Below are positions 16,171-31,877 of a stretch of DNA of 33,321 nt, one piece after another. Within the stretch, counting starts at the first letter, position 1; each line of letters begins with the position of its first letter. The stretch is from a bacterium (GTDB lineage Bacteria; Actinomycetota; Acidimicrobiia; Acidimicrobiales; Bin134). The stretch covers positions 1 to 33,321 of the forward strand of contig JAPPMA010000081.1 of NCBI GenBank assembly GCA_028819295.1, read 5' to 3'. The notes under the pieces were generated by a model. It saw only the letters and a program-made list of their open reading frames with translations. It made no database searches and had not been told where the DNA came from. The translations under genes were made by a program, and so were the position numbers.

Positions 16171-16190
16171 AACGATGACGAGTGGCTGAT

Positions 16191-16511: not shown

Positions 16512-16517
16512 TACACC

Positions 16518-16829: not shown

Positions 16830-16846
16830 GCGTGTAGGTTGGGCCT

Positions 16847-17407
16847 GTGCGATTGGAACGGGCCGCGGGGTATGGCGCGCTGACCAGCACCGGCGTGCTC
16901 ATCGCCCACACATTCGGCTATCTGATCGCCTACTCCAGCGCTGCCGACCGCAACATCGCACTGGCCGGGCACGCCTACTTCGGCCCGACAGCCTGGGTGA
17001 TAATCCCGCTGGCCTCGCTGCTCATCGCCGCGGTGGTGGTCCGGGCCGCGGCCCGCAGCGCGGTCACCGGGTTCCAGCCGGGGGTGGTGTCGGCTGCCAC
17101 CATGGGCGGATTCCTCGCTCTCGAGGTACTGGAGCGAGTACCCGCCGGTGAGCACCATGCCGTTATCACTGAGCCCGGCGTGGTGGCCGGCCTGGCTCTG
17201 TCGCTTCCCGTGGGGTGGGTGCTGGCCAAACTCGCCCGAAGCATCGAGCACATCGTCGAGGCCATCGTCAACAGCTCGCGGCGGCAGTGGTCGCGCCACG
17301 CGGCACCGGCCGCCCCAGTCGATGCGCCGGCTGCCGCCATCGGGCAGTTCTTCGGCCTGCTCCCCTCGCCCCGGGGTCCTCCAGGGTTGCGTGTTCTGAC
17401 CATCTGA
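16847..17407 (+). CDS. Small four-helix membrane protein of unknown function
   Basis: 186 aa from GTG 16847. Four hydrophobic segments are likely, around residues 9-27, 48-66, 77-95 and 112-130, followed by a basic, Ala/Pro-rich cytoplasmic tail. His residues occur in the first helix (L-I-A-H-T-F-G) and in the loops (G-H-A-Y-F, G-E-H-H-A), which might bind metal. I do not recognise the family. It lies 31 nt before the lipoprotein gene and 17929 follows closely, so the three are probably one operon for a copper- or redox-related envelope function (inference). Confidence 0.7.
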   Translation: MRLERAAGYGALTSTGVLIAHTFGYLIAYSSAADRNIALAGHAYFGPTAWVIIPLASLLIAAVVVRAAARSAVTGFQPGVVSAATMGGFLALEVLERVPAGEHHAVITEPGVVAGLALSLPVGWVLAKLARSIEHIVEAIVNSSRRQWSRHAAPAAPVDAPAAAIGQFFGLLPSPRGPPGLRVLTI

Positions 17408-17438
17408 CCTGAACACGCCCCAGAGAGAGGAGCCCAAA

Positions 17439-17921
17439 ATGAAATCAACCCGTTATGCGCGGGTGCTGGTCGGCCTGCTGGCCGTTCTCGGCTTGCTGAC
17501 CACCGCCTGCGCCAACGACGACACTGCGGTGCCAGCGGCGACGACCGGCCCCACGATCGTCCCCGAGACCCCGCAGCCCACTGACAGTCATTCCGATGAA
17601 ATGGCCATGGAGGAAACCGACCACGGTCACGCCACGCTGATGGAGATGGATGACAGTGCAGATACAACCATCGAAGTTGAGGTGGCCGGAGGCAAGCCGG
17701 TGGACGGGGTGCAGCGTCACCAGATCGACGCCCGAGACATCGTCACCATTGTGGTGAACGGCGACACCACCGACGAGCTCCACATCCACGGCTACGACCT
17801 CGTAGTGCCCTTCACCCCCGGCCAGCCCGGTTCAATCACTTTCGAGGCCGACATCCCCGGCATCTTCGAGGTGGAGACCCACCACCACGGTGATCTGGTG
17901 ATGGAGCTCCAGGTGGGATGA
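17439..17921 (+). CDS. Cupredoxin-like lipoprotein
   Basis: 160 aa. A lipoprotein signal peptide (V-L-V-G-L-L-A-V-L-G-L-L-T-T-A-C) puts the lipidated Cys at residue 24. An acidic, His/Met-rich linker (S-H-S-D-E-M-A-M-E-E-T-D-H-G-H) follows. The C-terminal ~90 residues have the order of a cupredoxin: D-I-V-T-I-V-V-N, H-I-H-G-Y-D, P-G-Q-P-G-S-I-T-F, then P-G-I-F-E-V-E-T-H-H-H-G-D. The type 1 copper Cys expected after F-E-V/F is absent, so a blue-copper site is unlikely, though Cu(I)/Cu(II) binding by His/Met remains possible. GAGAGGAG lies 8 nt before the ATG. It is followed 7 nt later by the large membrane protein gene, probably its partner. Confidence 0.85.
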   Translation: MKSTRYARVLVGLLAVLGLLTTACANDDTAVPAATTGPTIVPETPQPTDSHSDEMAMEETDHGHATLMEMDDSADTTIEVEVAGGKPVDGVQRHQIDARDIVTIVVNGDTTDELHIHGYDLVVPFTPGQPGSITFEADIPGIFEVETHHHGDLVMELQVG

Positions 17922-17928
17922 TTCTGGC

Positions 17929-19263
17929 GTGACCATGCTGAACACCGTGCTGGCCCACGGGGTGGGGTCGCGGGGCGACTTGCCCCTGCCGTTCTATCTG
18001 TTCGGCATCGGCGCCGCCGTGGCCCTCATGGCCGCCTTCGTCAGCTTGAGCTTCTTCTGGCATCGGGCCTGGCTGCCCGAGGCCGCAACGGGCCGGAGTC
18101 TGGGGATGGCCTTCGGTCGGGTGCTGGATGTGGTGGCCGTACCGGCCCGGCTGGCTTCGCTGGCGTTGTTCGTGCTGGCCCTGGCCAGCAGCGTGAGCGG
18201 CGCCGCGGTGGGAAGCCAGCGGTTCGGACCCCTCACGGTGTATGTGGCGCTGTGGGTGGGGATGGCGATGGTGGCGGCGGTGTTCGGCGATGTATGGCGG
18301 GTGCTCAACCCGTTCGAGACCATCGCCTCCGCCATCGAGTGGACCGCGGGCAAGCTGGACCTGCCCCAGTTCAAAGACACCGGTGAGATCCCCGGCGGCT
18401 ACTGGCCCTCGGTGATCGCGCTGGGATGGTTTCTGTTCTTCGAACTCTGCTACCACAACGGCACCACCAACGATGCGGTGGGCGGGGCCATGATCGCCTA
18501 CACGCTGGGGATGGTCGGCGGTTCGGCGGTGTACGGGCGGCGCTGGCTGCGCCAAGCCGACGGGTTCGGGGTGCTGTTCTCGCTGCTGGCCCAGATGTCG
18601 CCGCTGTACCGAGACGACACCGGGGCGGTGCGGTGCCGGGCACCGCTGTCGGGGCTGACCACCGTTGCCCCCCGCCTCGACCTGCTGGCTGTGCTGCTGG
18701 TGGTGCTGGGCGGCACCACCTTCGACTCGCTGGCCGGCAGCACCCTGTGGCCCAAACTGGTGGGCACCCACCGGGGCTGGACCGCCACCGGCACCAATAC
18801 CCTGGGAATGATCGTCGTCATCGCCATCATGGCGGCGCTCTACTACCTGGGGTCGCTGGCCGTGGGCTGGTTCACCGAGCAGTCCGCCCCCGAGGTGGCC
18901 CGGCGCTTCGCCCACTCCCTGGTGCCCATCGTGTTGGGCTACACCGTGGCCCACTACTTCTCGCTGCTGGTGCTCGACGGTGGCCAGAACTTCCTGCGCC
19001 TGTTGTCGAACCCGTTCGACCGCGGCTCCAACTGGTTCGGGACGGCCGACTGGGCGGTGAACTTCTTTTTGGTCTCCGCCGATGCCATCGCCTGGGTGCA
19101 GTTCTCAGCCATCGTCATCGGCCATATCGCCGCGGTGCTGGTGGCCCACGACCGGGCCGTGGAGACCAGCAAAGCCGACGAAGCTGTCTGGGCCCAGCGT
19201 CCCATGCTCATCGTCATGGTGTTCTACAGCGTGGTCGGCCTCTGGCTCCTCCAAGAAGCCTGA
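17929..19263 (+). CDS. Polytopic membrane protein, partner of the cupredoxin-like lipoprotein
   Basis: 444 aa with about 10 hydrophobic segments. The beginning, L-A-H-G-V-G-S-R-G-D-L-P-L-P-F-Y-L-F, is one I associate with actinobacterial membrane proteins labelled fenitrothion hydrolase-like; that label reflects one substrate and should not be taken as function. Conserved-looking points are W-R-V-L-N-P-F-E-T, F-E-L-C-Y-H-N, T-T-F-D-S-L-A and H-Y-F-S-L-L-V-L-D-G-G-Q. Several His and acidic residues lie in membrane segments, which would suit a metal transporter or membrane-bound enzyme. GTG 17929 or ATG 17935 could be the start; AGGTGG at 17911 suits the GTG. Last gene of the trio. Confidence 0.75.
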   Translation: MTMLNTVLAHGVGSRGDLPLPFYLFGIGAAVALMAAFVSLSFFWHRAWLPEAATGRSLGMAFGRVLDVVAVPARLASLALFVLALASSVSGAAVGSQRFGPLTVYVALWVGMAMVAAVFGDVWRVLNPFETIASAIEWTAGKLDLPQFKDTGEIPGGYWPSVIALGWFLFFELCYHNGTTNDAVGGAMIAYTLGMVGGSAVYGRRWLRQADGFGVLFSLLAQMSPLYRDDTGAVRCRAPLSGLTTVAPRLDLLAVLLVVLGGTTFDSLAGSTLWPKLVGTHRGWTATGTNTLGMIVVIAIMAALYYLGSLAVGWFTEQSAPEVARRFAHSLVPIVLGYTVAHYFSLLVLDGGQNFLRLLSNPFDRGSNWFGTADWAVNFFLVSADAIAWVQFSAIVIGHIAAVLVAHDRAVETSKADEAVWAQRPMLIVMVFYSVVGLWLLQEA

Positions 19264-19383
19264 CCGGGCGCTGTTCCGGCAGGCTCGGAATAGAGTGAGG
19301 CATGGCCGCGCAAACGACGGCGGCTGCCTAGGCACCCTCGACGTGAAGATCCCCGCCGACATGCACGCGACAGAAAAGCTCTG

Positions 19384-19405
19384 AGCGCCCACGGCAGGAT
19401 TCGAA
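19384..19405 (-). repeat. Left attachment site: copy of the tRNA-Arg 3' end
   Basis: 22 bp identical to 31801-31822, in the same orientation. The copy covers the acceptor 3' strand and T-arm of tRNA-Arg(CCT), and the match ends in the T-loop. The rest of the tRNA is absent, so it is not a tRNA gene. This is the footprint of site-specific integration. The distance between copies is 12,417 bp. Confidence 0.8.
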
Positions 19406-19458
19406 TATTCGCCAAACACCCAGGTAGAGACACCAAACGGGCGCTGGCAACTTGCTCT

Positions 19459-19478
19459 TCCCCCACTTTATCCCCCAT
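19459..19478. repeat. Left arm-type integrase motif (candidate)
   Basis: TCCCCCACTTTATCCCCCAT: two CCCCCA boxes 11 bp apart around TTTAT. A near-identical copy lies at 31657-31676 next to the integrase. Both lie just inside the att cores (54 bp and 124 bp away). Integrases of this type bind such paired arm sites on both sides. Confidence 0.5.
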
Positions 19479-19531
19479 TTGTGGCGCGATTGTCGAGATG
19501 GAGAGGGATCGTGGGCAAAGGCTTCCTGCTA

Positions 19532-20098
19532 CTAGTGGTGTGTCGCGGATTTGGTGATCCGGTCGAGGGTTGCTCGTCCTGAGGCGACTTTGTCGATGAT
19601 TTGTTGGGCTGTGCGGGTCCATGTGAAGGGTTCGGGGTTGTCGTTGTAGTGCTCGACCCACCAGTCGATGCGGTTCTCGAGTTCTGCGACTGATGAGAAG
19701 CTGGTGTTCGCGAGGGCTTCGCGGGTCAGCACGCTGAACCAGGCCTCGACGAGGTTCAGCCATGAGGAGCTGGCGGGGGTGAAGTGGAGGTGCCAGCGTT
19801 TTCGCTTGGGGTGGGAGAGCCAGTCGCGAACGGTCTGGGACTTGTGGGCCGAGAGGTTGTCCAAGATGACGTGGAGCTCCAGGTCCTTTGGGACGTGGAG
19901 GTCGATCAGCTTGAAGAACCCCAGCACGTCGCGTCCGGTGTGGCTGCGCCGGGTGTCGTGGAGCACTTCGCCGGTGGCGACGTTGAGCGCGGCGAACAGG
20001 TCCACGGTGCCGTGCCGCTTGTAGTCATGGGCATGGTGCCAGCCCGGCCGGGGACCACCGGCAGCGACGGCTGGGTCTGGTCAGGGTCAATAGGCCCC
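19532..20098 (-). pseudogene. IS630-family transposase, 5'-truncated and frameshifted
   Basis: The C-terminal DDE half is clear: V-D-L-F-A-A-L-N-V-A-T-G-E-V, H-V-I-L-D-N-L-S-A-H-K-S and H-F-T-P-A-S-S-S-W-L-N-L-V-E-A-W-F, with the catalytic Asp and Glu present. Upstream, Q-T-Q-P-S-L-P-V-V-P-G-R-A-G-T is in another frame; a 1-nt loss near 20040 breaks the join to H-D-Y-K-R-H-G-T. The N-terminal helix-turn-helix half is missing beyond a C-rich tract at about 20093-20110. It cannot make a working transposase. Confidence 0.88.
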
Positions 20099-20176
20099 CC
20101 TCCCCCCCTTCATTGAAGCATCTGGGCGGCGGTGACATCCTGCCCGTGAGCCCAGTTCTGGGGGTCAATCCGACGC

Positions 20177-20320
20177 TGGCTGCCAAAAGGCACCGACCTG
20201 CATATCCCAGCTGTGCGCCTGTCCATAATCGAGGACAACCTCAACACCATGCCCCGCAAACTCCACAACTGGAACTCAGCCCAAACCATCTACACCGCCC
20301 TCAACCGCAACCACCGATAG
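20177..20320 (+). pseudogene. IS30-type transposase, C-terminal remnant
   Basis: The plus-strand frame reads W-L-P-K-G-T-D-L, then L-S-I-I-E-D-N-L-N-T-M-P-R-K-L-H-N-W-N-S-A, ending at TAG 20320. P-K-G-T-D-L followed by L-N-x-x-P-R-K and W is the C-terminal signature of IS30 transposases, near the catalytic Glu helix. Only ~47 codons remain and no start is present. Confidence 0.7.
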
Positions 20321-20381
20321 AGCTTGCCCCGTTTCGGAACGACGGGCCCGTGGAGCCGCCGCTTTTAGAATCCGTGGTCGG

Positions 20382-20675
20382 CTAGCTGCACTTGCGGCAA
20401 GTGTCGGCTTCGGCCAGGATCATGTTCACCCGCGCTGAGAACAAAGCCTCCGATGAGTGGTCGTGCTCGGCCACGGCGGAACTCGATTCGGGGTTGTCGG
20501 CTACAGCCTCGTCCGCCAAGGCGTGCTCTTAGAACTCGTCTTGCCAGCGCAGCCCGGCACTCGCCTGCTCGATAGCCGCCTGCTCGCAGCCAGCTTCAGA
20601 CGGCGGTGAACAGGAGAGGGCGAGCATTCCCGCCGCAACAACAACGGCGGGAATGCCTATCCGATAGCACCTCAC
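20382..20675 (-). pseudogene. Small lipoprotein gene with in-frame TAA
   Basis: From GTG 20675 the frame reads R-C-Y-R-I-G-I-P-A-V-V-V-A-A-G-M-L-A-L-S-C, a lipoprotein signal peptide with lipobox A-L-S-C, then 27 residues to a TAA at 20531-20529. The same frame continues with protein-like sequence (E-H-A-L-A-D-E-A-V-A-D-N-P-E) for 48 codons to T-C-R-K-C-S and TAG at 20384-20382. So it is either one ~97-codon lipoprotein gene broken by a nonsense mutation or a 48-aa lipoprotein followed by debris. It lies 9 nt after the small membrane-protein gene, like the last gene of an operon. The family is unknown. Confidence 0.6.
20624..20656. repeat. Perfect 12-bp hairpin within the lipoprotein signal sequence
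   Basis: Arms 20624-20635 and 20645-20656 are perfectly complementary with a 9-nt CAACAACAA loop. The stem is 8/12 GC. It lies inside the region coding for the hydrophobic core of the signal peptide, near the ribosome entry, so it could slow translation or terminate transcription. No U-run follows. Confidence 0.7.
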
Positions 20676-20684
20676 ACAAGCTAC

Positions 20685-20885
20685 CTACGGACTATCGACG
20701 ACCGCGCTCTTGCGGCGGAAGAAACGGGACACAGCCCTTTGCGCTGTCATCACAGATGGCATCACGACCGCCATTGCTATAACCCAGATGAGATTAACGC
20801 TCGTGGTGAAAACCCCCAGCATGACAAAAACCGTCATTCCCGCCGCGGCAATAGCCGCGCGGGCTGCGAACTCCGCTCTTGTCAT
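20685..20885 (-). CDS. Small two-helix membrane protein
   Basis: 66 aa, about two transmembrane helices (F-A-A-R-A-A-I-A-A-A-G-M-T-V-F-V-M-L-G-V-F and V-N-L-I-W-V-I-A-M-A-V-V-M) and a basic tail (R-F-F-R-R-K-S). A GGAG lies just before the ATG. It is 18 nt downstream of the peptide gene and 9 nt before the lipoprotein. No family is recognised. By size and position it could be an immunity-type protein for the upstream peptide, which is inference only. Confidence 0.55.
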   Translation of the reverse strand: MTRAEFAARAAIAAAGMTVFVMLGVFTTSVNLIWVIAMAVVMPSVMTAQRAVSRFFRRKSAVVDSP

Positions 20886-20904
20886 GTCTCCGCTCTTGTC
20901 ATGT
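20871..20904. repeat. 17-bp tandem duplication around the small membrane-protein start
   Basis: CTCCGCTCTTGTCATGT occurs twice head to tail (20871-20887, 20888-20904). It duplicates the ATG; the outer ATG (20902) reads only five more codons before TGA, so 20885 is the usable start. The second copy also reaches the stop codon of the upstream ORF, so the duplication helped set the spacing between the two genes. Confidence 0.8.
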
Positions 20905-21122
20905 CAACAACTCACCATCACTCCGATTTGGGCCCCGGCGCTCGGCGCTGCGACCACTTGGCCTCCGGGGATCAAGCCCGCAACGAGGTTAGCACCCGCC
21001 CATCCCACATGGAGCCACTTATTGCACCTATTCACATGTGATCCGTGATACCAATAGGTAGTCGGCGGCACCCACACTGACACGGTGTAGGTTTCCCAAG
21101 AACTCTGGGTACGAGCGCACAC
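20904..21122 (-). CDS. Small Gly/Ala-rich peptide, possibly secreted
   Basis: 72 aa from a GTG at 21122, and the frame is open for ~40 further codons with no usual start (V-C-A-V-G-G-Y-W-E-S-V-P). The sequence is aromatic- and Cys-containing (S-W-E-T-Y-T-V-S-V-W-V-P-P-T-T-Y-W-Y-H-G) and then turns hydrophobic and Gly-rich (G-A-N-L-V-A-G-L-I-P-G-G-Q-V-V-A-A-P). This composition is reminiscent of a bacteriocin-like peptide, but I cannot assign a family. The 5' end abuts a recombinase fragment on the other strand and may be truncated. No Shine-Dalgarno is seen at the GTG. Confidence 0.35.
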   Translation of the reverse strand: MCARTQSSWETYTVSVWVPPTTYWYHGSHVNRCNKWLHVGWAGANLVAGLIPGGQVVAAPSAGAQIGVMVSC

Positions 21123-21191
21123 CCACGTATCGGTAGCGTAGTCAATCTCGTGCTGTACGCACCGCGACGTGAGCCTAGTTCTGGGTACTGA

Positions 21192-21599
21192 CTCCCAATA
21201 CCCGCCTACGGCGCATACGCGCCCATCTCCCAGTTCGCCTCAAACGCACTCAAGCAAATCAAACCCGCCGACGCTGGCCCCGACGCATTGGTGTTCGACC
21301 TGTCCCACAGCACCGTCGCCCGGCGCCTCAAAGCCGCCGCGAAAGCCGCCGGCATAGACCCCGCTGACATCTCCACCCACTCGCCCCGCGTCGGCATGGC
21401 CCAAGACCTCGCCGCCTCAGGCTTCGACATGGCCGCCATCATGGTCGCAGGCCGCTGGAGCACCCCAGCAATGATCGCCCGATACACCCGACGACTCACC
21501 GCCGCCGACACCGCCATCGCCAAACACCTCCAAACCCGACAACCCCGCCCCAGCCGACAAATGCCCTGTAACACCAACACCACACCCCAAGCCGCATAG
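21192..21599 (+). pseudogene. Tyrosine recombinase, C-terminal fragment
   Basis: The frame opens after a TGA at 21191 and contains box II of the family: H-S-P-R-V-G-M-A-Q-D-L (His-x-x-Arg), G-R-W-S-T-P-A-M-I-A-R-Y-T-R (Trp and the nucleophile Tyr). The first catalytic Arg, core-binding and arm-binding domains are missing. It differs from the P4-type integrase at the right end, so it comes from a second element. Confidence 0.85.
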
Positions 21600-21703
21600 A
21601 CCGCGGGACCAGCCAACGGGGGGAACCTCAGGGGGAACCTCATGGCACTGTCGGGGCGGCCGCGGGTTTTACGGCTGTTGGATTTTTTTCGGTCGTGCAT
21701 TGG

Positions 21704-21762
21704 GGTTGCGACCGGGTGGATGCGGTTTACGACCGGTGCCACGGAGGGTTGCGACCGGTCGC
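21704..21762. repeat. Iteron-like repeats GGTTGCGACCGG x3 with palindrome
   Basis: Copies at 21704-21715 (GGTTGCGACCGG), 21724-21736 (GGTTTACGACCGG) and 21747-21758 (GGTTGCGACCGG), at 20- and 23-bp spacing, i.e. about two helical turns. The last copy merges into the palindrome GCGACCGGTCGC. Such arrays bind replication, partition or recombination proteins. Confidence 0.6.
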
Positions 21763-21879
21763 GACAGGCACGGTGGTACATGATGGCGGTCATGTGCAGG
21801 GTTCTTGGCCTTCTGCGGGCGGTGGGTTGCGGCGGTGCTGCTCGTGTTGGCGGACCAGGGACGCGGGCCGTGGAAGCTG

Positions 21880-21913
21880 TATGTTTCTCAGATCGGCTCT
21901 GGTATATTTCTCA
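21880..21913 (+). promoter_or_regulatory. abiEi promoter with direct-repeat operator
   Basis: TATGTTTCTCA (21880-21890) and TATATTTCTCA (21903-21913) differ by one base and start 23 bp apart. The second contains TATATT (21903-21908), a good -10 located 6 nt before the ATG, so a leaderless mRNA. AbiEi proteins repress their own operon by binding repeats at the promoter; these are the likely sites. Confidence 0.55.
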
Positions 21914-21914
21914 T

Positions 21915-22766
21915 ATGGGCTCTGTCAAGGTTCTGAAGGGTCTGGGACCGGTGTTCTCGACTCGGGAGTTCGAGCGGGCGGCCGGGGTGCGCCCGTCTTC
22001 GGCGTCGCGCGCACTGGGGGAGTTGGCGGCCGGGGGCAGGGTGGAGAAGATTCGCCGGGGGACGTGGCGCAACTTCTGTGTGGAGTGGCCGTCTGCGGCC
22101 GATCAATTGGTCGGCGCCGGCCCGGTGTCGCACCATTGGACTGCGGAATGGGAGGCGGAGCTGGAGGCGGCCTATGGGGGCGCTGTTCGCCGTATCTCGG
22201 GTCTGACCGCGTTGGGAATGGCGGGGGCGGCGCTGATCTGCCGGCCGGAGGTCAGCGTGGCCGGCGCCGTCGCGTTCGACACTGATCCGTTCGGGTTCTC
22301 GTCATGGCGGGAGAGCCCCGAGGCGCTCTTGGTGGGCGCGGCACAGCTGACGGAGCACACCTGGGTGTCGACGCCCGCTCGGGCGATGTTGGAGTGCGCC
22401 CACCACCCTTACCGCTCGCACCGCTGGGAGGAGTATGTGGGCCGCATGTTGGCCTGGCGCTTCGAAGTGTGCGCGCCCGACGAAGTCGCCGAGGTGGCGG
22501 GCGCTTTGGGATGGCGCGCCGGATTGCGGCGGATCTCGTCTTTGGCACAGGGACTGGCCGAGACCCCGGCAGGGCAAAGCCTGGGGTTCGACATCGACCC
22601 CCGGTGGGCTGATCTGGGCTCCGCCGCTCGCCGAGGGGACGACTGGATTCACCTCGCGCCGCTGCACCGCACCGGCGATCCGCCCCGCATCGCCCACCAA
22701 GATGCGGCACGCAAGGTCAACTGGGCGGCGACACCCGAAGCTCTGGCCGCCGCGGTGTCGACATGA
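21915..22766 (+). CDS. AbiEi-type antitoxin/autorepressor
   Basis: 283 aa. The N-terminal winged helix is V-F-S-T-R-E-F-E-R-A-A-G-V-R-P-S-S-A-S-R-A-L-G-E-L, followed by R-V-E-K-I-R-R-G-T-W-R. The middle carries T-P-A-R-A-M-L-E-C-A-H-H-P-Y, typical of the AbiEi C-terminal domain that blocks the toxin. In phage-resistance AbiE systems it is a type IV antitoxin, counteracting a nucleotidyltransferase without binding it. The gene overlaps the abiEii start by 4 nt (ATGA). The ATG at 21915 is chosen by the promoter position and by the domain start. Confidence 0.85.
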   Translation: MGSVKVLKGLGPVFSTREFERAAGVRPSSASRALGELAAGGRVEKIRRGTWRNFCVEWPSAADQLVGAGPVSHHWTAEWEAELEAAYGGAVRRISGLTALGMAGAALICRPEVSVAGAVAFDTDPFGFSSWRESPEALLVGAAQLTEHTWVSTPARAMLECAHHPYRSHRWEEYVGRMLAWRFEVCAPDEVAEVAGALGWRAGLRRISSLAQGLAETPAGQSLGFDIDPRWADLGSAARRGDDWIHLAPLHRTGDPPRIAHQDAARKVNWAATPEALAAAVST

Positions 22767-23130
22767 GCCCCCCGGCGAGCCGGCACAGCCGATGGGAGCC
22801 AGCCGATCTGGTCCAGCACCAAATCGTCTCCGCAATCGCCGCCCGCCAACAAAACGTCCCCCGGGTGGTCTTCAAGGGCGGGACCCTTCTTCGGGTCTGC
22901 TACCGGCACGACTGGCGGTTCTCAGAGGACCTGGACTTCGACTGGATCCACACCGACGACAGCAAGCAAGCCATACACGACTTCCTCGACCGAGTCCTCA
23001 AGGCGGCGTCTAGGGCCTATGGGACCGCGTTCGACACGAAGTGGGGTGCCAACAAGCTCAACATCTACTGGGAGCAGCCCGGAGCTGTCACCGGCGTCAT
23101 CTACACCGACGTCAAACCCCACCACCACTT
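22763..23130 (+). pseudogene. AbiEii-type nucleotidyltransferase toxin, 3'-truncated
   Basis: The N-terminal ~120 residues have the family core: V-F-K-G-G-T-L-L-R-V-C-Y-R-H, then R-F-S-E-D-L-D-F-D-W, the GS..DxD-like motif of nucleotidyltransferases. AbiEii enzymes modify tRNA 3' ends or other targets and halt growth. The frame leaves family sequence after D-V-K-P-H-H-H at about 23130, where an IS5-like remnant begins. The rest of the ORF (to 23725) is antisense of that IS. The toxin is probably inactive. Confidence 0.85.
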
Positions 23131-23152
23131 AGGGGCCGAGCGGATAGGCGGG

Positions 23153-23613
23153 TTATGTGGGGTTGTATCGGTTCCGCCAGTCGATGAGTTTGGCGGTGAT
23201 CAATATGGTGACGGCGAGGCGCAGGGCGGCGTGGCGGCAGTCGGTTCTGCGGTCGGTGTTGCGGCGGAGTTGCCCGTAGTTCGACAGCCAGGAGTTGGCG
23301 GACTCGACGATCCAGCGCTTGCCCAGGGGTTCGGTTCTGGGCCGGCCCCGGGCGTGGCCGGACGGGCGTTTGGGTGTGCGCACGATGTCGTCGATGCCCC
23401 AGCGTCGGCAGGTCTTGGCCACGGGGTCGCCGGTGTAGCCGCGGTCGAGGTGGATGGTCTCTATGTCTGCGATCAGGCCGGTGCGGGAGACGGCGGCCAA
23501 TGTGGGCTCCAACATTGTCTGGTCGTTGACGTTGGCCGCGTCGGCGGCCCAGCCGACGGGGATGCCGTGGCGGTCTGCGGCGATGGACCACTTCCACCCG
23601 AGGCTGCAACGCT
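23153..23613 (-). pseudogene. IS5-like (Transposase_11) transposase, N-terminus lost
   Basis: Residues G-W-K-W-S-I-A-A-D-R-H-G-I-P-V-G-W, then I-H-L-D-R-G-Y-T-G-D-P, and R-W-I-V-E-S-A-N-S-W-L-S-N-Y-G-Q-L-R-R are the middle and C-terminal signatures of DDE transposases of this family, with catalytic Asp and Glu. The first ~100 residues are absent: sequence upstream of ~23613 belongs to a GNAT gene on the same strand. It ends at the junction with abiEii, so both ends of this remnant are recombination points. Confidence 0.87.
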
Positions 23614-23943
23614 GAGTGCCCAGGATTCGACAACATCGACCAGAGCATCGCCAACACCGCCGCCACGAACTTCGGGAGCTACCCACATCGAGAGGAGTTC
23701 AACCTCTTCCTTTCGCTCCGTGTGAGCGCCCGAAGCTTGGCCGACCGGCTCCCCTTGGACGTACGCAACGAAGTTCGCAGCCACGTTGGAGAGTCTCGAC
23801 CTCCAGCGCTCCTCAAGGTCGCCACTGCCTGACCAGTCGTCCAACGAAGAACCGAAGGCTGCCGGAGCTTCTTCAAGAGCCCGTTGGCGAACCTCGCGCC
23901 AGATCCGCCAATCATCAGCAGTCACTCTTCGGATCTCCGGCAC
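23614..23943 (-). pseudogene. GNAT acetyltransferase, 3'-truncated
   Basis: The first 110 residues have GNAT order: I-R-R-V-T-A-D-D-W-R-I-W-R-E-V-R-Q-R-A-L at the start and L-L-S-M-W-V-A-P-E-V-R-G-G-G-V-G-D-A-L-V, the acetyl-CoA P-loop. After E-S-W-A-L (~23614) the frame enters the IS5-like remnant and ends at 23473 as nonsense. The substrate is unknown. The C-terminal beta strands are missing, so a folded enzyme is unlikely. Confidence 0.8.
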
Positions 23944-24272
23944 TCGCTTAGCTTCGCGTTAAATGGCAGCGGGCGCACCCAAGCCTGGTCTCCTTTGCGC
24001 TTACGAGGCGTTTGCCTCGGTCAACCGAACACCGCCGCGAGCGCCTGACGTGCTAGCCTTAGGCTTTACGTTGCACGAGAGTTCGGCAGGTGATCGCTGA
24101 AATGACGTCGAACGAGTCTGCGTCGTCCGAATCAGTCGCACAGACGTTAGCTCGGCCGACCTAGCCGCGCCGCTTGCCCGGCTCTCGCTTGAGCGCCGCA
24201 AGTGACGCGCACGCCGTACTTGACTCGCCATCCCACACGCTGCGCCAACGGATCTAGCGTAACGTGCGGCGG
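23944..24272. other. Intergenic region upstream of galM-like gene
   Basis: No gene found on either strand. The stretch is less GC-rich than the chromosome. TAGCGT (24256-24261) could be a -10 for the gene at 24273. No good -35 is at 17 bp. No terminator or RNA is seen. Confidence 0.5.
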
Positions 24273-25283
24273 ATGAGAGTCAGCCAAGAGACGGTGGGTC
24301 AGGTGGCCCCGAGCGGCACCGGATCGCCCGTCGATGTTCATGCCTTTCGCGTCACGGGCGCCTCGATCGGCGCCGAGCTCCTGACGTACGGGGCGACGCT
24401 CACCGAACTCCGACTACAAGACGCCGACGGGACGATGGTCAACACCGTCCTGCGATATCGGACTCTGGACGAGTACATCGATCCGGATCCGATCGCCTAC
24501 CTCGGTGCTACCACCGGACGGTTCTCCCGGTGCATCGCCGGAGCCGTGCTCCGCATCGACGACGATCAGTACGAACTCGATGCCAACGAATCGGGCCACC
24601 ACTTCCACGGAGGCTCCGGGGGGTTTCATTCCCGTGTCTGGACCGCGGACGCAGAGGCGCACGCGGATACCGCGACGGTGCTGATGACGTTGCAGAGCCC
24701 GGACGGTGATCAGGGCTACCCTGGAACACTTGACGTCGAGTTGGCCGTCACCGTCGGCAACGACCTCACGCTCCGCTTCGACTACACGGCCACAACTGAC
24801 ACCCCGACCATCGTCGATCTCACGAACCACGCCTTCTGGAACCTGGATGGAGGGCGGGCGATCGATCGTCACCATCTGGCCATCAACGCCGCGACCCGCC
24901 TCCCCGTCGATCCGACACTGCTTCCGTCGGGCCCGCCGGTACCTGTCGAGGGCGATCTCGACTATCGGACCGCTGCCGCTATCGGCACATCGAGACTCGA
25001 CCACTGCTTCGCGCTCGACGATCCCTCCTGGGCGGCGGTCCTCACCGCGCCGCGCACGGGACAATGGATGCGGGTCGAGACTGACCAACCGGGACTTCAG
25101 GTATACAGCGGCGATCACCTGAGCCCTAGCCGTTCAGGGTTGGCACTGCAGTGCGGGGCGTGGCCCGATGCGCCCAATCAGCCGAGCTACCCGCCGGCTC
25201 GGCTCGACCCAGGACAAGTTTACCGCCACACGACCGTCCACCAATTCGACGCAACAGGGATGCCCGACAACCTACACCCGTGA
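24273..25283 (+). CDS. Aldose 1-epimerase-like protein with altered catalytic Glu
   Basis: 336 aa from ATG 24273 (an upstream GTG at 24264 adds three codons). The fold signature is clear: G-R-F-S-R-C-I-A-G-A, H-F-H-G-G (His112), L-T-N-H-A-F-W-N-L (His186) and P-D-A-P-N-Q-P. GalM interconverts alpha and beta sugars using two His and one Glu. That Glu lies in the usual L-E-T/P-Q before f-P-D, but here the text is L-A-L-Q-C-G-A-W-P-D (Gln293). Either the base is lost or another residue substitutes, so sugar binding may remain without normal turnover. It is convergent with glnS, with 15 bp between stops. Confidence 0.85.
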   Translation: MRVSQETVGQVAPSGTGSPVDVHAFRVTGASIGAELLTYGATLTELRLQDADGTMVNTVLRYRTLDEYIDPDPIAYLGATTGRFSRCIAGAVLRIDDDQYELDANESGHHFHGGSGGFHSRVWTADAEAHADTATVLMTLQSPDGDQGYPGTLDVELAVTVGNDLTLRFDYTATTDTPTIVDLTNHAFWNLDGGRAIDRHHLAINAATRLPVDPTLLPSGPPVPVEGDLDYRTAAAIGTSRLDHCFALDDPSWAAVLTAPRTGQWMRVETDQPGLQVYSGDHLSPSRSGLALQCGAWPDAPNQPSYPPARLDPGQVYRHTTVHQFDATGMPDNLHP

Positions 25284-25298
25284 GTCATCACGCCGGAC

Positions 25299-26987
25299 TC
25301 ACGACTGTATCTGTGAGGCCTTTGCCTTGGCCTTCTGGATCGCCGCCCACTCATCCCTCAAGCCGGCCGTCTCGTGGAACACCGGACCATCGCCGACATC
25401 GCGGCTGAAGTATCCGACGCGCTCGAACTGAACAACATCGCCGGCCTCCACGTCCTCGAGCGCCGCCTCGAGCTTTGCGCCATACGTCCTGCGTGCGTCG
25501 AGGGCGATCTCGGGATCGTGCGCATCCGGAAGTGATTCGGGGAACAGCCGGTCATAGCGGTGAACGGTCCCGTCGACCGCAGCCGCACAGGAGACCCAAT
25601 GGATCGTCGCCTTCACCTTCCGACCGTCCGGGGCGTTGCCTCCCACGGTCGCCGGATCGTAGGTCGCGTGTACCTCGACCACTTGGCCGTCCTCGTCAAC
25701 GACGTGATCGACAGCCGTCACGAAGTAGGCGTATCGCAACCTAACCTCGCGCCCAGGAGTGAGCCGGTAGTACTTGGGCTCGGCTTGAGCGCGATAGTCA
25801 TCGCGCTCGATCCAGAGGACACCGTCGAAGGGCACCGAGCGGACGCCCGCGTCGGGATCCTCGGGATTGTTGATGGCGTCGACCATCTCCACGACCCCGT
25901 TACCCTCGTCGTCGACAGGCCAGTTCGTGATGATCAGCTTGATCGGATCCAGTACCGCGGCACGACGGAGCGCATAACGGTTGTGCTGACGCCGAACAAA
26001 GGACTCGAGCAGCTCGATCTCGACCACACTGTTGGTCTTGGCGACCCCGACGTGCCGCACGAGCTCGACGATCGCCTCGGCGGGGAAGCCCCGGCGGCGA
26101 GCGGCGCGCAGTGTCGGCATCTGCGGGTCGTCCCAACCGTCGACCATTCCGTTGGCCACTAATCGTCGCAACACCCGCTTTGACATGACGGTGTGGGTGA
26201 AGTTGAGTCGCGCGAACTCGATTTGCTCAGGCCTTGGGTGATCGACACCGGTCGCGTCGAGCAGCCAGTTATAGAGCGGACGGTGGTCCTCGAACTCGAG
26301 CGTGCACAACGAATGGGAGATGCCCTCGATCGCATCGGACAGGCCGTGAGCCCAGTCGTAGGTCGGGTAGATGCACCACATGTCGCCCGTGCGCTGATGG
26401 TGTGAGTGTCGAATCCGGTACAGCACCGGATCCCGCATGGTCATGACCTCATGGGCCATGTCCACCTTCGCCCGCAGCACGGCTTGACCGTCGGCGAGTT
26501 CTGCCGCTCGCATCGTCTGCAGGAGCGCGAGGTTCTCCTCTGGTGCCCGGTCTCGGAATGGACTGTCGACACCTGGCTTGCCGAAGCTGCCGCGCTGAGC
26601 GGAGATGATCTCGGCCGGTTGCTCGTCGACGTAGGCCATACCCCGGCTCACGAGCTGCTCGGCCCACTCATACAGCTGATCGAAGTAGTCGGATGCAAAC
26701 AGGACCGCATCCGGCTCGAATCCGAGCCATCGGACATCCTCGACGATCGCGTCGACGAACTCCTGGTCCTCGGCGTCGGGATTGGTGTCATCGAAGCGGA
26801 GGTTGCACGTACCGCCGTGCTCGCGGGCGATGTCGAAGTTGAGGACGATCGCCTTGGCGTGGCCCAGGTGGAGATAACCGTTCGGCTCGGGTGGGAAGCG
26901 CGTGCGGATCTCCGTCGCACGGCCCGAGGCTTTGTCGTCGAGCACCTTCGCTCGGATGAAATCGGCGGATCTGGCAGCGTGGGACAT
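25299..26987 (-). CDS. glnS: Glutaminyl-tRNA synthetase
   Basis: 562 aa. Class I motif F-P-P-E-P-N-G-Y-L-H-L-G-H-A-K (HLGH at 40-43) and the GlnRS form of KMSKS, V-M-S-K-R (267-271), are intact. The tRNA acceptor-binding segment, L-R-F-D-D-T-N-P-D-A-E, and the anticodon-binding beta-barrels (G-R-E-V-R-L-R-Y-A-Y, F-E-R-V-G-Y-F) are also present. It charges tRNA-Gln directly. Most actinobacteria make Gln-tRNA by GluRS plus GatCAB, so a GlnRS here is unusual. AAAGG lies 6 nt before the ATG. It is 173 nt downstream of the ileS-like gene and on the same strand. Confidence 0.95.
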   Translation of the reverse strand: MSHAARSADFIRAKVLDDKASGRATEIRTRFPPEPNGYLHLGHAKAIVLNFDIAREHGGTCNLRFDDTNPDAEDQEFVDAIVEDVRWLGFEPDAVLFASDYFDQLYEWAEQLVSRGMAYVDEQPAEIISAQRGSFGKPGVDSPFRDRAPEENLALLQTMRAAELADGQAVLRAKVDMAHEVMTMRDPVLYRIRHSHHQRTGDMWCIYPTYDWAHGLSDAIEGISHSLCTLEFEDHRPLYNWLLDATGVDHPRPEQIEFARLNFTHTVMSKRVLRRLVANGMVDGWDDPQMPTLRAARRRGFPAEAIVELVRHVGVAKTNSVVEIELLESFVRRQHNRYALRRAAVLDPIKLIITNWPVDDEGNGVVEMVDAINNPEDPDAGVRSVPFDGVLWIERDDYRAQAEPKYYRLTPGREVRLRYAYFVTAVDHVVDEDGQVVEVHATYDPATVGGNAPDGRKVKATIHWVSCAAAVDGTVHRYDRLFPESLPDAHDPEIALDARRTYGAKLEAALEDVEAGDVVQFERVGYFSRDVGDGPVFHETAGLRDEWAAIQKAKAKASQIQS

Positions 26988-27160
26988 CGTTTGCCTTTCA
27001 GCTCACAGTGTTGGTTGGATTCGGTAGGCGACACCGGACGATCACTTGCAGGCTAGAGGCTCCCGATCGGATCGCCCGAGGGTTGGCGCTGGCCCTTCGT
27101 GGGTCGTCTGCGGATGGGAGGCCGGATGCGTCCGTGCGAGCGGCCACATGCCCCACCGAC

Positions 27161-30100
27161 CTAGCCAGATGTCGGAGCCTCAACCGGCCGAATGATCGTG
27201 TCATCCGAGGAGGCGAGATCGACCGACTCAGCGAGGGTTTCGGCACCGATCCACTCCCGGTGCGGTAGAAGCGATCCGTCGGACTGCGGGAGGGACAGTG
27301 CGATGCGCTGGGTGATCTTGAGACCCATGTCCTTGCGCATCCCGTTGACCCGATGGATAGTGTCGTAGACCCGCGCCTCTAGGAGGAGCTCGTCATCGAG
27401 TTCGGTGTCGATGGCGACCGTGATCCCATCGGCAGACGCAACCGCGAGGTTATCGCCGACGATCCGGTCGATCTGGACCTCCTCAGGCGTGAGCACGTAC
27501 CCGCCGACCTCGAACGAGCCGTCCGCCAACGCTGCGAACTCCCCGCTTGCCAGCAGGTCCTTGATCTTGGGTAGGTCTGAGCCGACCCGCGGACCGAGCG
27601 CACGGAAGTTCGGTCGGACAACTAGCTCGGTTCCCTCGACACCGGCGAACTTGACCTGCTTTATTCGGAGTTCGGATGCGATGAGATTGGCGTGCGCGGC
27701 AGCCTGGTCTGCTCCCTCCACCGTCATGGAGCGAAGCGGTTGCCGGGTTCGCAGCTGCTTGGATTCGCGCACTTGGCGACCGAGCTCCACGACCCGTCGG
27801 GTCGTCGCCATCGAGGCGATGAGGTTCGAGTCCACTGGTCGCTGCTCCGGCCAGCCGCTGAGGAAGACCGAGGAGGGTGCTTCCGGGCTGACCGGCCGCA
27901 CGAGCCGTTGCCAAAGGTGTTCGGTAACGAAGGGCACGATCGGTGCCACGACCCGTAGCGACTGCGCGAGGCAGGTCCACAGCACTTGGAGCGCCGCAGG
28001 ATCGCCGTCCCAGAATCGCCGGCGCGACAGGCGGATGTACCAGTTCGAAAGGTCGTCGACATAGTCCTCGAATGCTCGGAGGACGTCGACGGTCAGGAAC
28101 TCATCGTACGCGGCGGTCGTTTCGGCGACGAGTTGGTCGGTGCGGATCAGGATCCATCGGTCGAGCGTCTCGACCTGCCGGAACGCCTCGACTGACCCCG
28201 CGGACTCCGACAACGACCGTAGATCCGGCGTGAATCCCTCGATCGAAGCGTACCGAACAAAGAACGCCGCCGAGTTCCACCAGGTCAGCAGCTTGCGGCG
28301 GATCTCATTTCCGGGGCCGAACCCGAACAGCAGATTCTGGTGCGGCGGTTGCGCGCAGTACTGCCACCGCATCACGTCGGCACCCATCTCGGCGAAGGCC
28401 TCCTCGGCGCTGATGGCGTTGCCCCAGGAGCCGTGCATCTCCCTGCCCGTCTCGTCGAGCATCTTCTCATAGGAGAGCACGGTCTTGAACGGCGCGACGC
28501 CGGTCAACGTCACCGACATGAACAGCTGGGCGTAGAACCAGAGCCTGATCTGCTCACGCATCTCGGACACCCAGTCGGCAGGGAACCACTCCTCCCAGAA
28601 GTCCTGATCGGGGAGGTCGGCATCGGTGAGTCCACGAGCCGCGCCTGTGCCGTACCCACCGTCGAGCCAGGAGAGGTTCTCCCAACCGAGAGTCGAGAAC
28701 GGGACGATGCCGGCGTCGAGCCAGACGTCGCCGACCTCGAGCACGCGGCTCACCGGTTTGCCGCACGCCTCGCAGCTGATCCGAACATCGTCGATCCACG
28801 GTCGACGCAGCTCCTCGAGATCATCGAGTGGATCCACCGTACGCTGGGCGAGGTCGTCCTTCGATCGGACGACGGTGACGTGTCCACACTTACACGGATA
28901 GAACGGCAACGGGAGGCCGTAATAGCGGCGCCGGGAGATGTTCCAGTCGCCCATGTTGACAAGCCAGTCGTCCATCCGCTTGCCCATGTATTCGGGCACC
29001 CAGGTGACGCTGCGATTGGCGGTCCGCATCTGCTCGCGGATGTCGGTGACCGAGATGAACCAGTCATCGGACAGCCTGAAGATCAGTGGCGTGTGACACC
29101 GCCAACACTCGGGAAACCGGTGGTGGATCGTTCCGGCGGAGACCAGAAGGTCCCGATTGCGAAGATCCTCGAGGATGTCGGGCGCGACCTCCGATGTGGC
29201 CCGTCCAGCGAGCCACCCGAACGACGGGTAGTAACGGCCGGCTTCGTCCACCGGCGAGATCGCCGGGAGGTTCTCTACCAGGCTCAGGTCGAAGTCCTCC
29301 GTGCCGCAGCCCGGAGCGATGTGGACGATGCCGGTGCCTCCGTCCACGGCGACCTCGTCCCAGAGTACCACCCGATGCTCGATCCCCGCTCCCGGGCCGA
29401 GTTCGTCGAAGGGCCCGTGGTAGCGCCACCCCGCGAGATCTCGTCCGAGCAGCGCGCTGTCAGGCACCGGCTGCTCGCCGTCGGCCTCCGGATCGGAGAC
29501 CCAGATCCGCCAGTCACCGTCGCTGGTCGGTGCATACGTCGCGTCGGGGTTGATGGCGGCTGCGACATTGGCCGGAAGGGTCCACGGTGTCGTCGTCCAG
29601 ATGACGATCGACTCGCCCGGCCGGTCGACCAACGGGAACCGGACTTCGATCGCCGGGTCCTCCCGGTCGACATAGCTGCCCACCAACTCGTGCGCCGACA
29701 GCGACGTGCCGCAACGGGGGCACCACTCGGTGGCGCGATGGCCTTGGTACAGCCAGCCGTTATCGTGAACGCGTTCGAGGAAGCGCCAGATGTACTCAAT
29801 GTTCGTATCGGAGAACGTGAAGTAACTCCGGTCCCAGTCCATCCACTGCCCGAGCCGGATCGAGCCCTCGGTCAGCTGTCGAGACGACCGCTCGACCACC
29901 TCGCGACATCGGCGTGCGAACTCTGCGAGTCCGTACGCCTCGACATCGGTCTTGGAGTTCAGGCCGAGCGACTGCTCGACACCGACCTCGATCCACAGCC
30001 CCTGGCAGTCGAACCCGTTCTGGTACCGCTGGTGGTAGCCGCACATCGCCTTGTAGCGCTGGAAGACGTCCTTGAGCGTGCGGCCCCATGCGGTGTGGAC

Positions 30101-30253
30101 ACCGAGGGACTTGTTCGCCGTCACCGGCCCATCGACGAAGCTGAACCGCGGGCCCTCGGTGTTGGCCGCGCGAACCTGCTCGAACGTGGCTTCGCGCTCC
30201 CACTGTTCGAGGATCTGGAGCTCGAGGGCGGGATGATCGGGCTTGTCCGGCAT
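27161..30253 (-). CDS. Isoleucyl-tRNA synthetase-like paralogue with degenerate HIGH and KMSKS
   Basis: 1030 aa. The overall architecture is IleRS: Rossmann halves, the editing domain with W-T-T-T-P-W-T-L-P-A-N and H-I-A-P-G-C-G-T-E-D, several C-x-x-C zinc knuckles (W-C-P-R-C, C-W-R-C, P-C-K-C, C-E-A-C), anticodon domain and a long C-terminal extension. But the HIGH site reads G-V-H-T (51-54, in N-K-S-L-G-V-H-T-A-W-G-R) and KMSKS reads E-M-H-G-S (605-609), while the G-W-F region has Q-I-R-L-W-F. ATP activation in the usual way is doubtful. The reading frame is otherwise intact and well conserved-looking, so it is maintained. Possible roles are a divergent synthetase, editing factor or regulator. 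The ATG at 30253 precedes P-D-K-P-D-H-P-A-L-E, a normal IleRS beginning. TACGCT at 15 nt upstream may be the -10. No T-box leader. Confidence 0.85.
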   Translation of the reverse strand: MPDKPDHPALELQILEQWEREATFEQVRAANTEGPRFSFVDGPVTANKSLGVHTAWGRTLKDVFQRYKAMCGYHQRYQNGFDCQGLWIEVGVEQSLGLNSKTDVEAYGLAEFARRCREVVERSSRQLTEGSIRLGQWMDWDRSYFTFSDTNIEYIWRFLERVHDNGWLYQGHRATEWCPRCGTSLSAHELVGSYVDREDPAIEVRFPLVDRPGESIVIWTTTPWTLPANVAAAINPDATYAPTSDGDWRIWVSDPEADGEQPVPDSALLGRDLAGWRYHGPFDELGPGAGIEHRVVLWDEVAVDGGTGIVHIAPGCGTEDFDLSLVENLPAISPVDEAGRYYPSFGWLAGRATSEVAPDILEDLRNRDLLVSAGTIHHRFPECWRCHTPLIFRLSDDWFISVTDIREQMRTANRSVTWVPEYMGKRMDDWLVNMGDWNISRRRYYGLPLPFYPCKCGHVTVVRSKDDLAQRTVDPLDDLEELRRPWIDDVRISCEACGKPVSRVLEVGDVWLDAGIVPFSTLGWENLSWLDGGYGTGAARGLTDADLPDQDFWEEWFPADWVSEMREQIRLWFYAQLFMSVTLTGVAPFKTVLSYEKMLDETGREMHGSWGNAISAEEAFAEMGADVMRWQYCAQPPHQNLLFGFGPGNEIRRKLLTWWNSAAFFVRYASIEGFTPDLRSLSESAGSVEAFRQVETLDRWILIRTDQLVAETTAAYDEFLTVDVLRAFEDYVDDLSNWYIRLSRRRFWDGDPAALQVLWTCLAQSLRVVAPIVPFVTEHLWQRLVRPVSPEAPSSVFLSGWPEQRPVDSNLIASMATTRRVVELGRQVRESKQLRTRQPLRSMTVEGADQAAAHANLIASELRIKQVKFAGVEGTELVVRPNFRALGPRVGSDLPKIKDLLASGEFAALADGSFEVGGYVLTPEEVQIDRIVGDNLAVASADGITVAIDTELDDELLLEARVYDTIHRVNGMRKDMGLKITQRIALSLPQSDGSLLPHREWIGAETLAESVDLASSDDTIIRPVEAPTSG

Positions 30254-30440
30254 CGGGCTGAACACCGGGTGGAGCGTAGCAGCCAGCCCGGCTGATCCGT
30301 CCGCATCCAGACCCCGATGGCCCGGTCGGCCAGGCCCGTGGAGCCGCCGCCCACCAGGCCAAAGAGTCGGGCCGATTCCCTCAAATAGGGTGCCCGTGGC
30401 CCACACAGACGACCTCGGATCACGCGATACGATCGCCGCT

Positions 30441-30905
30441 ATGGATGACCAATCGAACCTCCGCATCGGCGTCTATGCGCCGCAGGTCGACGTTGCGGCA
30501 GACGTCTACGTGGGACTTGCCGAACGAGCAGAAGCGGTCGGCGTCAACGTCTTCTATACGTTTGATCACATCCGGCCGCCCGATGGCAATCAGGACACCG
30601 CGTGTCTCGACGGACTCGCACTCACCGCGGCAGTCGCGGCCCGCACGACTCGGATGCATGTCGGCTCCCTCGTTCTCGCCACGCCGTATCGCCACCCGAC
30701 GTTGATCGCCCAGTACGCCGCAACGTTGCACAGCCTGACTGGCGGTCGATTCGAACTCGGTCTCGGGGCGGGTGGCGGAGATCTCGCCGTCGCCCAGGGC
30801 GATCTCCGCTTTCCCGAACGCACGAGCCGACGCATCGCGGATCTCGACGAATACTGCACAGTGGTCCGAGGTCTCTTCGACAGCGAGACGACGTCATTCG
30901 CGGGC
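30441..30905 (+). pseudogene. LLM-class flavin-dependent oxidoreductase, 3'-truncated
   Basis: The first ~155 residues are a luciferase-like monooxygenase: I-G-V-Y-A-P-Q, V-F-Y-T-F-D-H-I-R, T-T-R-M-H-V-G-S-L-V-L, P-Y-R-H-P-T-L-I-A-Q-Y-A-A-T-L, and G-R-F-E-L-G-L-G-A-G. Family members use F420 or FMN. After S-E-T-T-S-F-A-G (30903) the frame runs into antisense of the integrase, making a fused 267-aa ORF to 31244. The flavin-binding second half is gone. It is divergent from the ileS-like gene (187 bp). Confidence 0.88.
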
Positions 30906-31652
30906 TGCGAAGTCGATCTCGTCCCATGTCGCGTTGCGGGCCTCACCGGAGCGGGCCGCGGTCAACACCACGAACCGCAGACACAGCTTGGCCGACGAAG
31001 ACGCGCCGGACGCCTCCACTACCGCGAGCGCATCTGCCACATCTGTGTAGGCCAGCGAGCGGAAATGGGACTTGACGCGCGGCATGGGCGGCAGGGCCCC
31101 GTCGATAACCTCGCCGGCCATGTTGAAAGTGACGTAGCCATGCGCCTGGCACCATCTCAGCACCGTGCGGATTCTTTGGCGGACTTTGCGGGCCGTCTCG
31201 GTGCGCGTCGCCCACATTGGCTCCACGCACCTAAGCACGTCTGACTGGGAGATGCGGTCCACCGCCAGATCACCGATGATGGGGAACGCGTGGTTCTCCA
31301 GCGACGCCCACCACAGCCTCGCGGTCCGGTCGCTGCGCCACCTGGCCCGGTTCGCATCCAACACCTTCTTCGCAGCCTCGCGGAACGTCGGCACGTCGCC
31401 CCGGCGCTTGTCGGCCAAAGGATCGCGACCGCTTGCCGCCGCGGCGCGGTGCTCGAACGCCTTTGCGCGGGCGTCGGCCAAGCTCACCTCGGGCCAGCCT
31501 CCCAACCCGATCTCGCGGCGGCGCCCGTCCACAGTGAGGCGCAGAACCCAGCATCTCGACCCGGATTCGTACACTCTCAGAAATAATCCCTGGCCGTCCT
31601 GGTGCTTTCCCACACCGGCGTTCTTGACCTTCGCGGCGGTCAATTGCGGCAT
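30894..31652 (-). pseudogene. P4-type tyrosine integrase, C-terminally truncated
   Basis: The N-terminal arm-binding domain (M-P-Q-L-T-A-A-K-V-K-N-A-G, D-G-Q-G-L-F-L-R-V) and core-binding domain are complete. The catalytic domain begins with L-T-A-A-R-S-G-E-A-R-N-A-T-W-D-E-I-D (first catalytic Arg) and then stops at 30896, where the LLM gene fragment lies on the other strand. His-x-x-Arg and Tyr are missing, so the protein cannot recombine DNA. The ATG at 31652 is preferred; a GTG at 31676 sits in the arm-type motif. It lies 150 bp from tRNA-Arg, as expected for the integrase of an element inserted there. Confidence 0.92.
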
Positions 31653-31656
31653 CCCA

Positions 31657-31676
31657 TCCCCCAATTTATCCCCCAC
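31657..31676. repeat. Right arm-type integrase motif (candidate)
   Basis: TCCCCCAATTTATCCCCCAC matches 19459-19478 except for two bases. It lies just upstream of the integrase ATG, so integrase binding here could also repress its own gene. Confidence 0.5.
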
Positions 31677-31800
31677 TCTTTCGGGGATAGCTCGAACGAT
31701 ACTGGGAACAGTCTACTACCGGCTACTGACATAAACGGTCGTTACGCTGGGGAAATGGGGAACAACACAGACCCACTGGCAACAACAGAAAACTGTCGGC

Positions 31801-31822
31801 AGCGCCCACGGCAGGATTCGAA
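31801..31822 (-). repeat. Right attachment site within tRNA-Arg
   Basis: The right copy of the 22-bp direct repeat shared with 19384-19405. It covers the tRNA 3' end, so integration kept the tRNA intact. Confidence 0.8.
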
Positions 31823-31877
31823 CCTGCGACCTTGGACTTAGGAGGTCCCTGCTCTGTCCTGACTGAGCTACGTGGGC
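31803..31877 (-). tRNA. tRNA-Arg (anticodon CCT)
   Basis: The cloverleaf is complete: acceptor GCCCACG/CGTGGGC, D-stem GCTC/GAGC, anticodon loop CTCCTAA (anticodon CCT, reading AGG), T-arm GCAGG-TTCGAAT-CCTGC. One weak point is the first anticodon-stem pair, G-A. CCA is not encoded. Rare-codon tRNA-Arg genes are common targets of integrases. Confidence 0.93.

Follow-up and report, generated by a model that had tools for sequence, protein, structure and literature searches.

An isoleucyl-tRNA synthetase with altered HIGH and KMSKS signatures and a putatively rebuilt ATP site, carried on a tRNA-Arg island of an actinobacterial genome

The ileS gene on the minus strand at 27161-30253 of the window (the whole stretch of DNA analysed, 33,321 nucleotides) was found to encode an isoleucyl-tRNA synthetase (IleRS) that contains neither a recognisable HIGH nor a recognisable KMSKS signature. 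With a probability of roughly 0.8, the protein is a working IleRS2-type synthetase with a rebuilt ATP site, in which a basic residue has moved to position 48, and it is foreign to the genome of the window and most likely still charging tRNA-Ile.

Results

Altered signature motifs in the window IleRS

The ileS gene and the sites discussed below were located in the window as follows.

27161..30253, minus strand: ileS of the [GA]VHT / xMH[GA]S clade, 1030 aa plus stop, with a TIGR00392 match and an AlphaFold2 fold
30110..30112, minus strand: Lys48 codon (AAG) in the pre-HIGH loop, basic residue gained
30092..30103, minus strand: GVHT (residues 51-54) at the HIGH position, G51-V52-H53-T54
29711..29722, minus strand: CPRC (178-181), CP1 zinc knuckle, with invariant Arg180 as a candidate gamma-phosphate contact by analogy with LeuRS Arg178
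28427..28441, minus strand: EMHGS (residues 605-609) at the KMSKS position, with Gly608 in place of the second lysine

The frame was found to be open from the ATG at 30253 to 27161 with no internal stops, which confirmed the full 1030-residue protein with GVHT and EMHGS that had been read in the original prediction. An ATG at 30466 would give a longer ORF; homologues begin at 30253. The protein scored 641.2 bits against TIGR00392 (isoleucyl-tRNA synthetase), above the curated equivalog cut-off of 621.4, and was found to contain the Pfam domains PF00133, PF08264 and PF19302, with the class I catalytic, CP1 editing, anticodon-binding and C-terminal domains all present. The AlphaFold2 model had a mean pLDDT of 90.7 and its top PDB matches were IleRS in every case, the closest being the IleRS2 of Priestia megaterium (8c8u; Z 41.4, 920 residues aligned). 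The editing domain contained the TTTPWT (220-225) and D320 residues, and Cys pairs were present at 178/181, 383/386 and 494/497. Nearly all of these were invariant or at least 90% conserved in the 55 relatives compared, in agreement with the earlier claim that the editing domain and the zinc knuckles are kept.

The window protein was found to contain GVHT in place of an HXGH signature, and EMHGS in place of a KMSKS signature with its second lysine. The earlier statement that both motifs are replaced holds in that the changes are real, whereas the Gly at the first and the His at the third HIGH position (G51, H53) represent the known GXHH swap of IleRS2 (PMC10485003). The features that appear to be new over the GXHH enzymes are T54, the loss of Lys608 and the basic residue at 48. 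Chance or sequencing error as the source of the motif pair was ruled out, as the same pair was found in more than 40 relatives.

Relatives of the window IleRS

The relatives comprised 80 sequences found by scanning species genomes of bacteria and archaea, together with those from the window's own class. The derived group was found to contain 44 sequences, truncated ones counted, with [GA]VHT (one PVHT and one AMHT) and xMH[GA]S, residue 51 being G or A (P in one) and residue 53 being H. A second group of 44 relatives contained GVHH-type motifs, nearly all together with xMHKS, and the derived clade was nested in the tree within the GVHH/GXHH-type IleRS2 group. By its sequence, the window IleRS belongs to this actinobacterial [GA]VHT plus xMH[GA]S clade. 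The original prediction had raised the possibility of such a clade in other actinobacteria, with no function described for it, and the search for relatives bore this out; a literature search of incomplete coverage found no paper describing GXHT enzymes. Other unusual KMSKS variants (EFHKT/EFHKS) were found in the IleRS of Chloroflexi (L083, L090 and L092), together with GIHH/GVHH.

Brkic et al. (2023) described non-canonical GXHH IleRS2 in which the catalytic His is moved from position 1 to position 3 (PMC10485003), and which is active and mupirocin hyper-resistant (PMC10485003). Their survey discarded sequences 'lacking the catalytic motif' (PMC10485003), and the derived clade may have been dropped by this filter. 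The derived clade shares with the GXHH enzymes the swapped HIGH positions 1 and 3 (G/A and H), the IleRS2 architecture, the sole or housekeeping role and related GVHH sequences in Chloroflexi and Thermoleophilia (PMC10485003), but differs from them in containing Thr for the fourth His, Gly or Ala for the second KMSKS lysine, and Lys or Arg at residue 48. The canonical IleRS2 of Thermus thermophilus (1ILE) and Priestia megaterium (8C8U-8C8W) have the whole fold in common with it, with Z scores of 38-41 and 33-38% identity across 790-920 residues, whereas they contain intact HXGH and KMSKS and a Gly at residue 48.

Coupled change at residues 48, 54 and 608

In the main alignment, residue 48, three positions before HIGH, was found to be Lys or Arg in 40/40 derived sequences and in 0/43 GVHH relatives, which contained mostly Asn. 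Residue 54 was Thr in all 40 derived sequences compared with His in 44/44 others; since the fourth His has given way to T54, the clade is a descendant of the GXHH group and not a member of it by motif. Residue 608 was Gly or Ala in 43/43 derived sequences compared with Lys or Arg in 44/44 others. Within the clade, R48 was found together with A608 (7/7) and K48 together with G608 (32/32).

Part of this association reflects shared ancestry, because K48, T54 and G608 arose on one branch. In a tree built without the columns of the three residues, R48 and A608 arose together three times, independently and on supported branches, and the length-weighted chance of three such co-switches was about 5e-6, conditional on this tree. 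The IleRS of Ca. Gaiellasilicea (L067:7001-10054), nested in the clade (SH-aLRT 99 with L021), was found to contain G48, H54 and K608, so that all three sites appear to have reverted to the ancestral-type state. In L058, which lies inside the R48/A608 subclade but contains G608, K48 was predicted and was then found on reading the frameshifted region. An exception was the partial sequence L220 (G354), which contained N48 with T54 and whose residue 608 lies beyond the contig end.

Presence of the altered IleRS as the only IleRS

The altered-motif protein was found to be the only IleRS in 27 genomes of the derived clade in a profile (HMM) scan for ileS. It was the only ileS above 500 bits in these genomes, the remaining hits being below 220 bits and of the lengths of ValRS and LeuRS; as controls, the profile also picked up the IleRS1 of E. 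coli and the full set of 14 control genomes. The same result was obtained for 30 genomes in a protein search (a set that overlaps the 27), and the extra pieces found were all of the altered type. Three near-complete chromosomes were found to contain the altered IleRS alone, namely Gaiella sp. FR_16 (G299; 3.28-Mb single contig), Gaiellaceae KatS3mg012 (G300; 2.62-Mb single contig) and G479 (5.14-Mb contig, 98% complete). An orthologous exchange was found within one genus, in which G110 contained only a canonical (non-derived) IleRS of 853 bits and G479, G546 and G632 contained only the altered one.

As the sole IleRS of the 27 genomes, the altered protein has to make Ile-tRNA there, and therefore the altered site must work. 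On this indirect evidence the altered protein is read as the housekeeping IleRS in genomes of the derived clade, and the altered-motif IleRS is probably active.

The tRNA-Arg island and its cargo

In the window, the ileS gene was found inside an island with the following features.

19384..19405: left attachment-like site, 22-bp direct repeat AGCGCCCACGGCAGGATTCGAA
19532..20005, minus strand: DDE_3 transposase fragment
21642..22766, plus strand: AbiEi-like antitoxin gene, 86% aa identity to the island of congener G181
22763..23725, plus strand: AbiEii-like toxin gene, homologous in the first ~95 aa only, truncated by the cargo
24264..25283, plus strand: aldose 1-epimerase (galM-like)
25299..26987, minus strand: second glnS, 562 aa
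30441..30893, plus strand: luciferase-like monooxygenase, 5' fragment, cut at the integrase junction
30894..31676, minus strand: tyrosine-type integrase, truncated, 260 aa compared with 391 aa in the full copy of congener G181
31801..31822: right attachment-like site, second copy of the 22-bp repeat, at the 3' end of the tRNA-Arg gene
31802..31877, minus strand: tRNA-Arg (CCT), integration target

The island spans 19384-31822 (12.4 kb); each of its borders (19384 and 31801) was found to carry one copy of a perfect 22-bp direct repeat matching the 3' end of the tRNA, and a tyrosine integrase, though truncated, was found beside the tRNA. The AbiEi-like gene gave no Pfam match and is named from its position before AbiEii. 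The cargo, at about 23.1 to 30.9 kb (~8 kb), contained galM, glnS, ileS and the monooxygenase fragment, and its junctions truncate AbiEii and the integrase. The integrase and the AbiEi-like gene that flank it were 86-94% identical to those of a tRNA-associated island of congener G181. The tetranucleotide distance from the host was 0.32 for the cargo compared with 0.06-0.12 for host segments, a guide only, since the reference includes part of the host segments. Taken together, the ~8-kb segment with galM, glnS and ileS is foreign, horizontally gained and situated inside the tRNA-Arg island.

A canonical ileS, whose presence elsewhere in the genome had been proposed as a check, was found on contig C33 (G000:C33:249-3296). 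It contained HHGH and KLSKK in an intact protein of 1064 aa and lay in conserved synteny. The altered ileS was absent from all 17 congeners searched. Only in this genome is the altered enzyme a second copy, and the two ileS copies are attributed to horizontal acquisition on the tRNA-Arg island and not to an old paralogue pair.

The metK and coaBC genes on the window contig were single-copy and 98% and 92% identical, respectively, to those of congener G252, and window positions 2523-16561 were 86% identical in DNA to the same congener. On the right of the island, xsc and tRNA-Arg were 93-97% identical to a congener. The tRNA-Arg was found in a 97% identical stretch of G252 (G252:C14:36335-36424) without an adjacent integrase, and the DNA left of the left repeat of the window was unmatched in G252. 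The window contig is accordingly regarded as native to the host genome.

Several further observations were made in the window and its relatives. Integrases related to that of the island were found beside other tRNA genes at G181:C25, G181:C11 and G000:C50 (L199, L200 and L201), and the element family is therefore taken to be common in the genus. The second glnS was 61-65% identical to the native glnS, with signature motifs that look canonical (HLGH and VMSKR); the native glnS was split at two contig ends (G000:C27:3361-3990 and G000:C89:2-1075), probably by an assembly break. The 2.8 kb between the host synteny and the left repeat (16561-19384) contained ORFs for which neither a Pfam match nor an equivalent in the compared parts of the congener genomes was found. 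A PriA-like protein of only 570 aa was encoded at 11016-12728 and matched the NCBIfam PriA models below their cut-off; degenerate PriA occurs in other actinobacteria.

Plasmid or viral carriage of the clade was rejected, as nothing close to it was found in plasmids (best 37% identity) or in viral contigs. A conserved ileS-glnS-galM operon was rejected as well, since no glnS or galM homologue was found near ileS in the flanks of the relatives compared or in four order-mates.

Discussion

State and role of the island copy

The window protein was found on the longest branch of the derived clade in the tree and contained 9 private changes at otherwise invariant sites, mostly mild, which leaves room for relaxed constraint in the window host. 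Its nearest relative was 68% identical in protein sequence, and for this reason synonymous sites are presumed to be saturated. The island copy may be a passenger on its way to being lost, intact in sequence and unused in this host, as its branch and the number of its private changes (the most in the clade), the truncated AbiEii, monooxygenase and integrase genes around it and the 17 congeners that lack it would suggest. Such a course is possible though doubtful, given the open frame of 1030 aa, the conserved substrate, editing and zinc residues and the conservative nature of most of the private changes.

It has also to be considered that the island copy confers resistance on the window host, as an additional IleRS that a mupirocin-like natural product does not inhibit, in the manner of plasmid-borne MupA, while the native IleRS does the routine work. 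The mobile context and the second copy fit such a role, among mobile cases MupA is the most similar in kind, and the GXH-type motif is linked to hyper-resistance (PMC10485003). MupA and MupB, the mobile mupirocin-resistant IleRS, resemble the window case as a second IleRS on mobile DNA but were only about 30% identical, and the window protein scored 458.3 and 473.1 bits compared with model cut-offs of 1900. The native HHGH/KLSKK enzyme is itself of type 2 (eukaryote-like) by sequence and hence of a kind usually already less sensitive to mupirocin, the second glnS that travels along is not a mupirocin target, and antibiotic genes were not found nearby in the window; on balance the role is unlikely. 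It is compatible with the preferred reading of an active synthetase and is not an alternative to activity. Under that preferred reading, the window enzyme is probably little affected by inhibitors of the mupirocin type.

Binning contamination or a chimeric contig that brought in the gene of another organism was considered in view of the congeners without the gene, the draft state of the genome (3.82% contamination), the end of the left host synteny with G252 at 16561 and the location of the tRNA-Arg/xsc region of G252 on another contig. As a simple reading it was rejected on account of the native, single-copy metK and coaBC and the cargo bracketed by the congener-type AbiEi-like gene and integrase and by the matching 22-bp repeat; the congener-like xsc and tRNA-Arg on the right also stand against it, two false joins would be required, and it is very improbable.

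A catalytically dead paralogue that has taken up editing, tRNA binding, amino-acid sensing or a ligase side reaction as its new role would account for the loss of both signatures beside a canonical ileS in the same genome, but hardly deserves credence when the same motif pair is found in the only IleRS of 27 genomes, three of them near-complete chromosomes, when the ordered compensatory change at residue 48 and the return of all three sites in L067 suggest that the ATP site has been maintained, and when the editing and tRNA-binding domains are unchanged and not specialised. The maintained paralogue with a new role that had been put forward in the original prediction was thus not supported, the presence of two copies here being due to horizontal acquisition.

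Proposed arrangement of the ATP site

For the working synthetase that is preferred here, the ATP site of LeuRS offers a comparison. In the pre-transition state of LeuRS, three contacts hold the alpha-phosphate, namely the fourth His of HIGH, the second lysine of KMSKS and a backbone N located six residues ahead of HIGH (PMC9424281), the beta-phosphate is bound by the first His and both KMSKS lysines (PMC9424281), and the gamma-phosphate by an Arg of the CP1 hairpin and the last KMSKS Ser (PMC9424281). As its backbone N contacts the alpha-phosphate, the pre-HIGH loop lines the phosphates.

In the derived clade, a first step, known for the GXHH enzymes, would be the shift of the catalytic His from the first HIGH position to the third, where it is H53 in the window protein. 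A second and new step would be that two ligands of the alpha/beta-phosphates, the His at HIGH position 4 and the second lysine of KMSKS, were lost, giving T54 and G/A608, and that a single Lys or Arg at residue 48, from a loop already lining the alpha-phosphate, took their place. Ser609 and probably Arg180 of the CP1 hairpin would keep hold of the gamma-phosphate. We infer that, at the phosphates of ATP, K48 may take over from the second lysine of KMSKS. The wider proposal is that the clade lacks the fourth HIGH His and any KMSKS lysine and relies on the one relocated Lys/Arg48 for alpha/beta-phosphate catalysis, that R48/A608 and K48/G608 are interchangeable, and that the change was fully reversed at least once; we hold this to be an even bet.

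Class I synthetases with weakened motifs include human and archaeal TyrRS (KMSSS), TrpRS (TIGN) and GluRS (HVGG), and these variants make it clear that either the second lysine of KMSKS or the fourth His can be replaced on its own. None of them is known to combine the two losses with a GXH swap and a basic residue gained ahead of HIGH.

Meaning for class I synthetases

HIGH and KMSKS are the textbook markers by which class I synthetases are annotated and paralogues are called 'dead'. A clade that supplies all Ile-tRNA with neither motif recognisable would mean that these markers are not required and that filtering by motif can hide active enzymes. The altered clade would extend the account of mupirocin hyper-resistance given for the GXHH enzymes, and the natural coupled mutations at residues 48, 54 and 608, with both forward and reverse steps, make the movement of a catalytic lysine between loops testable.
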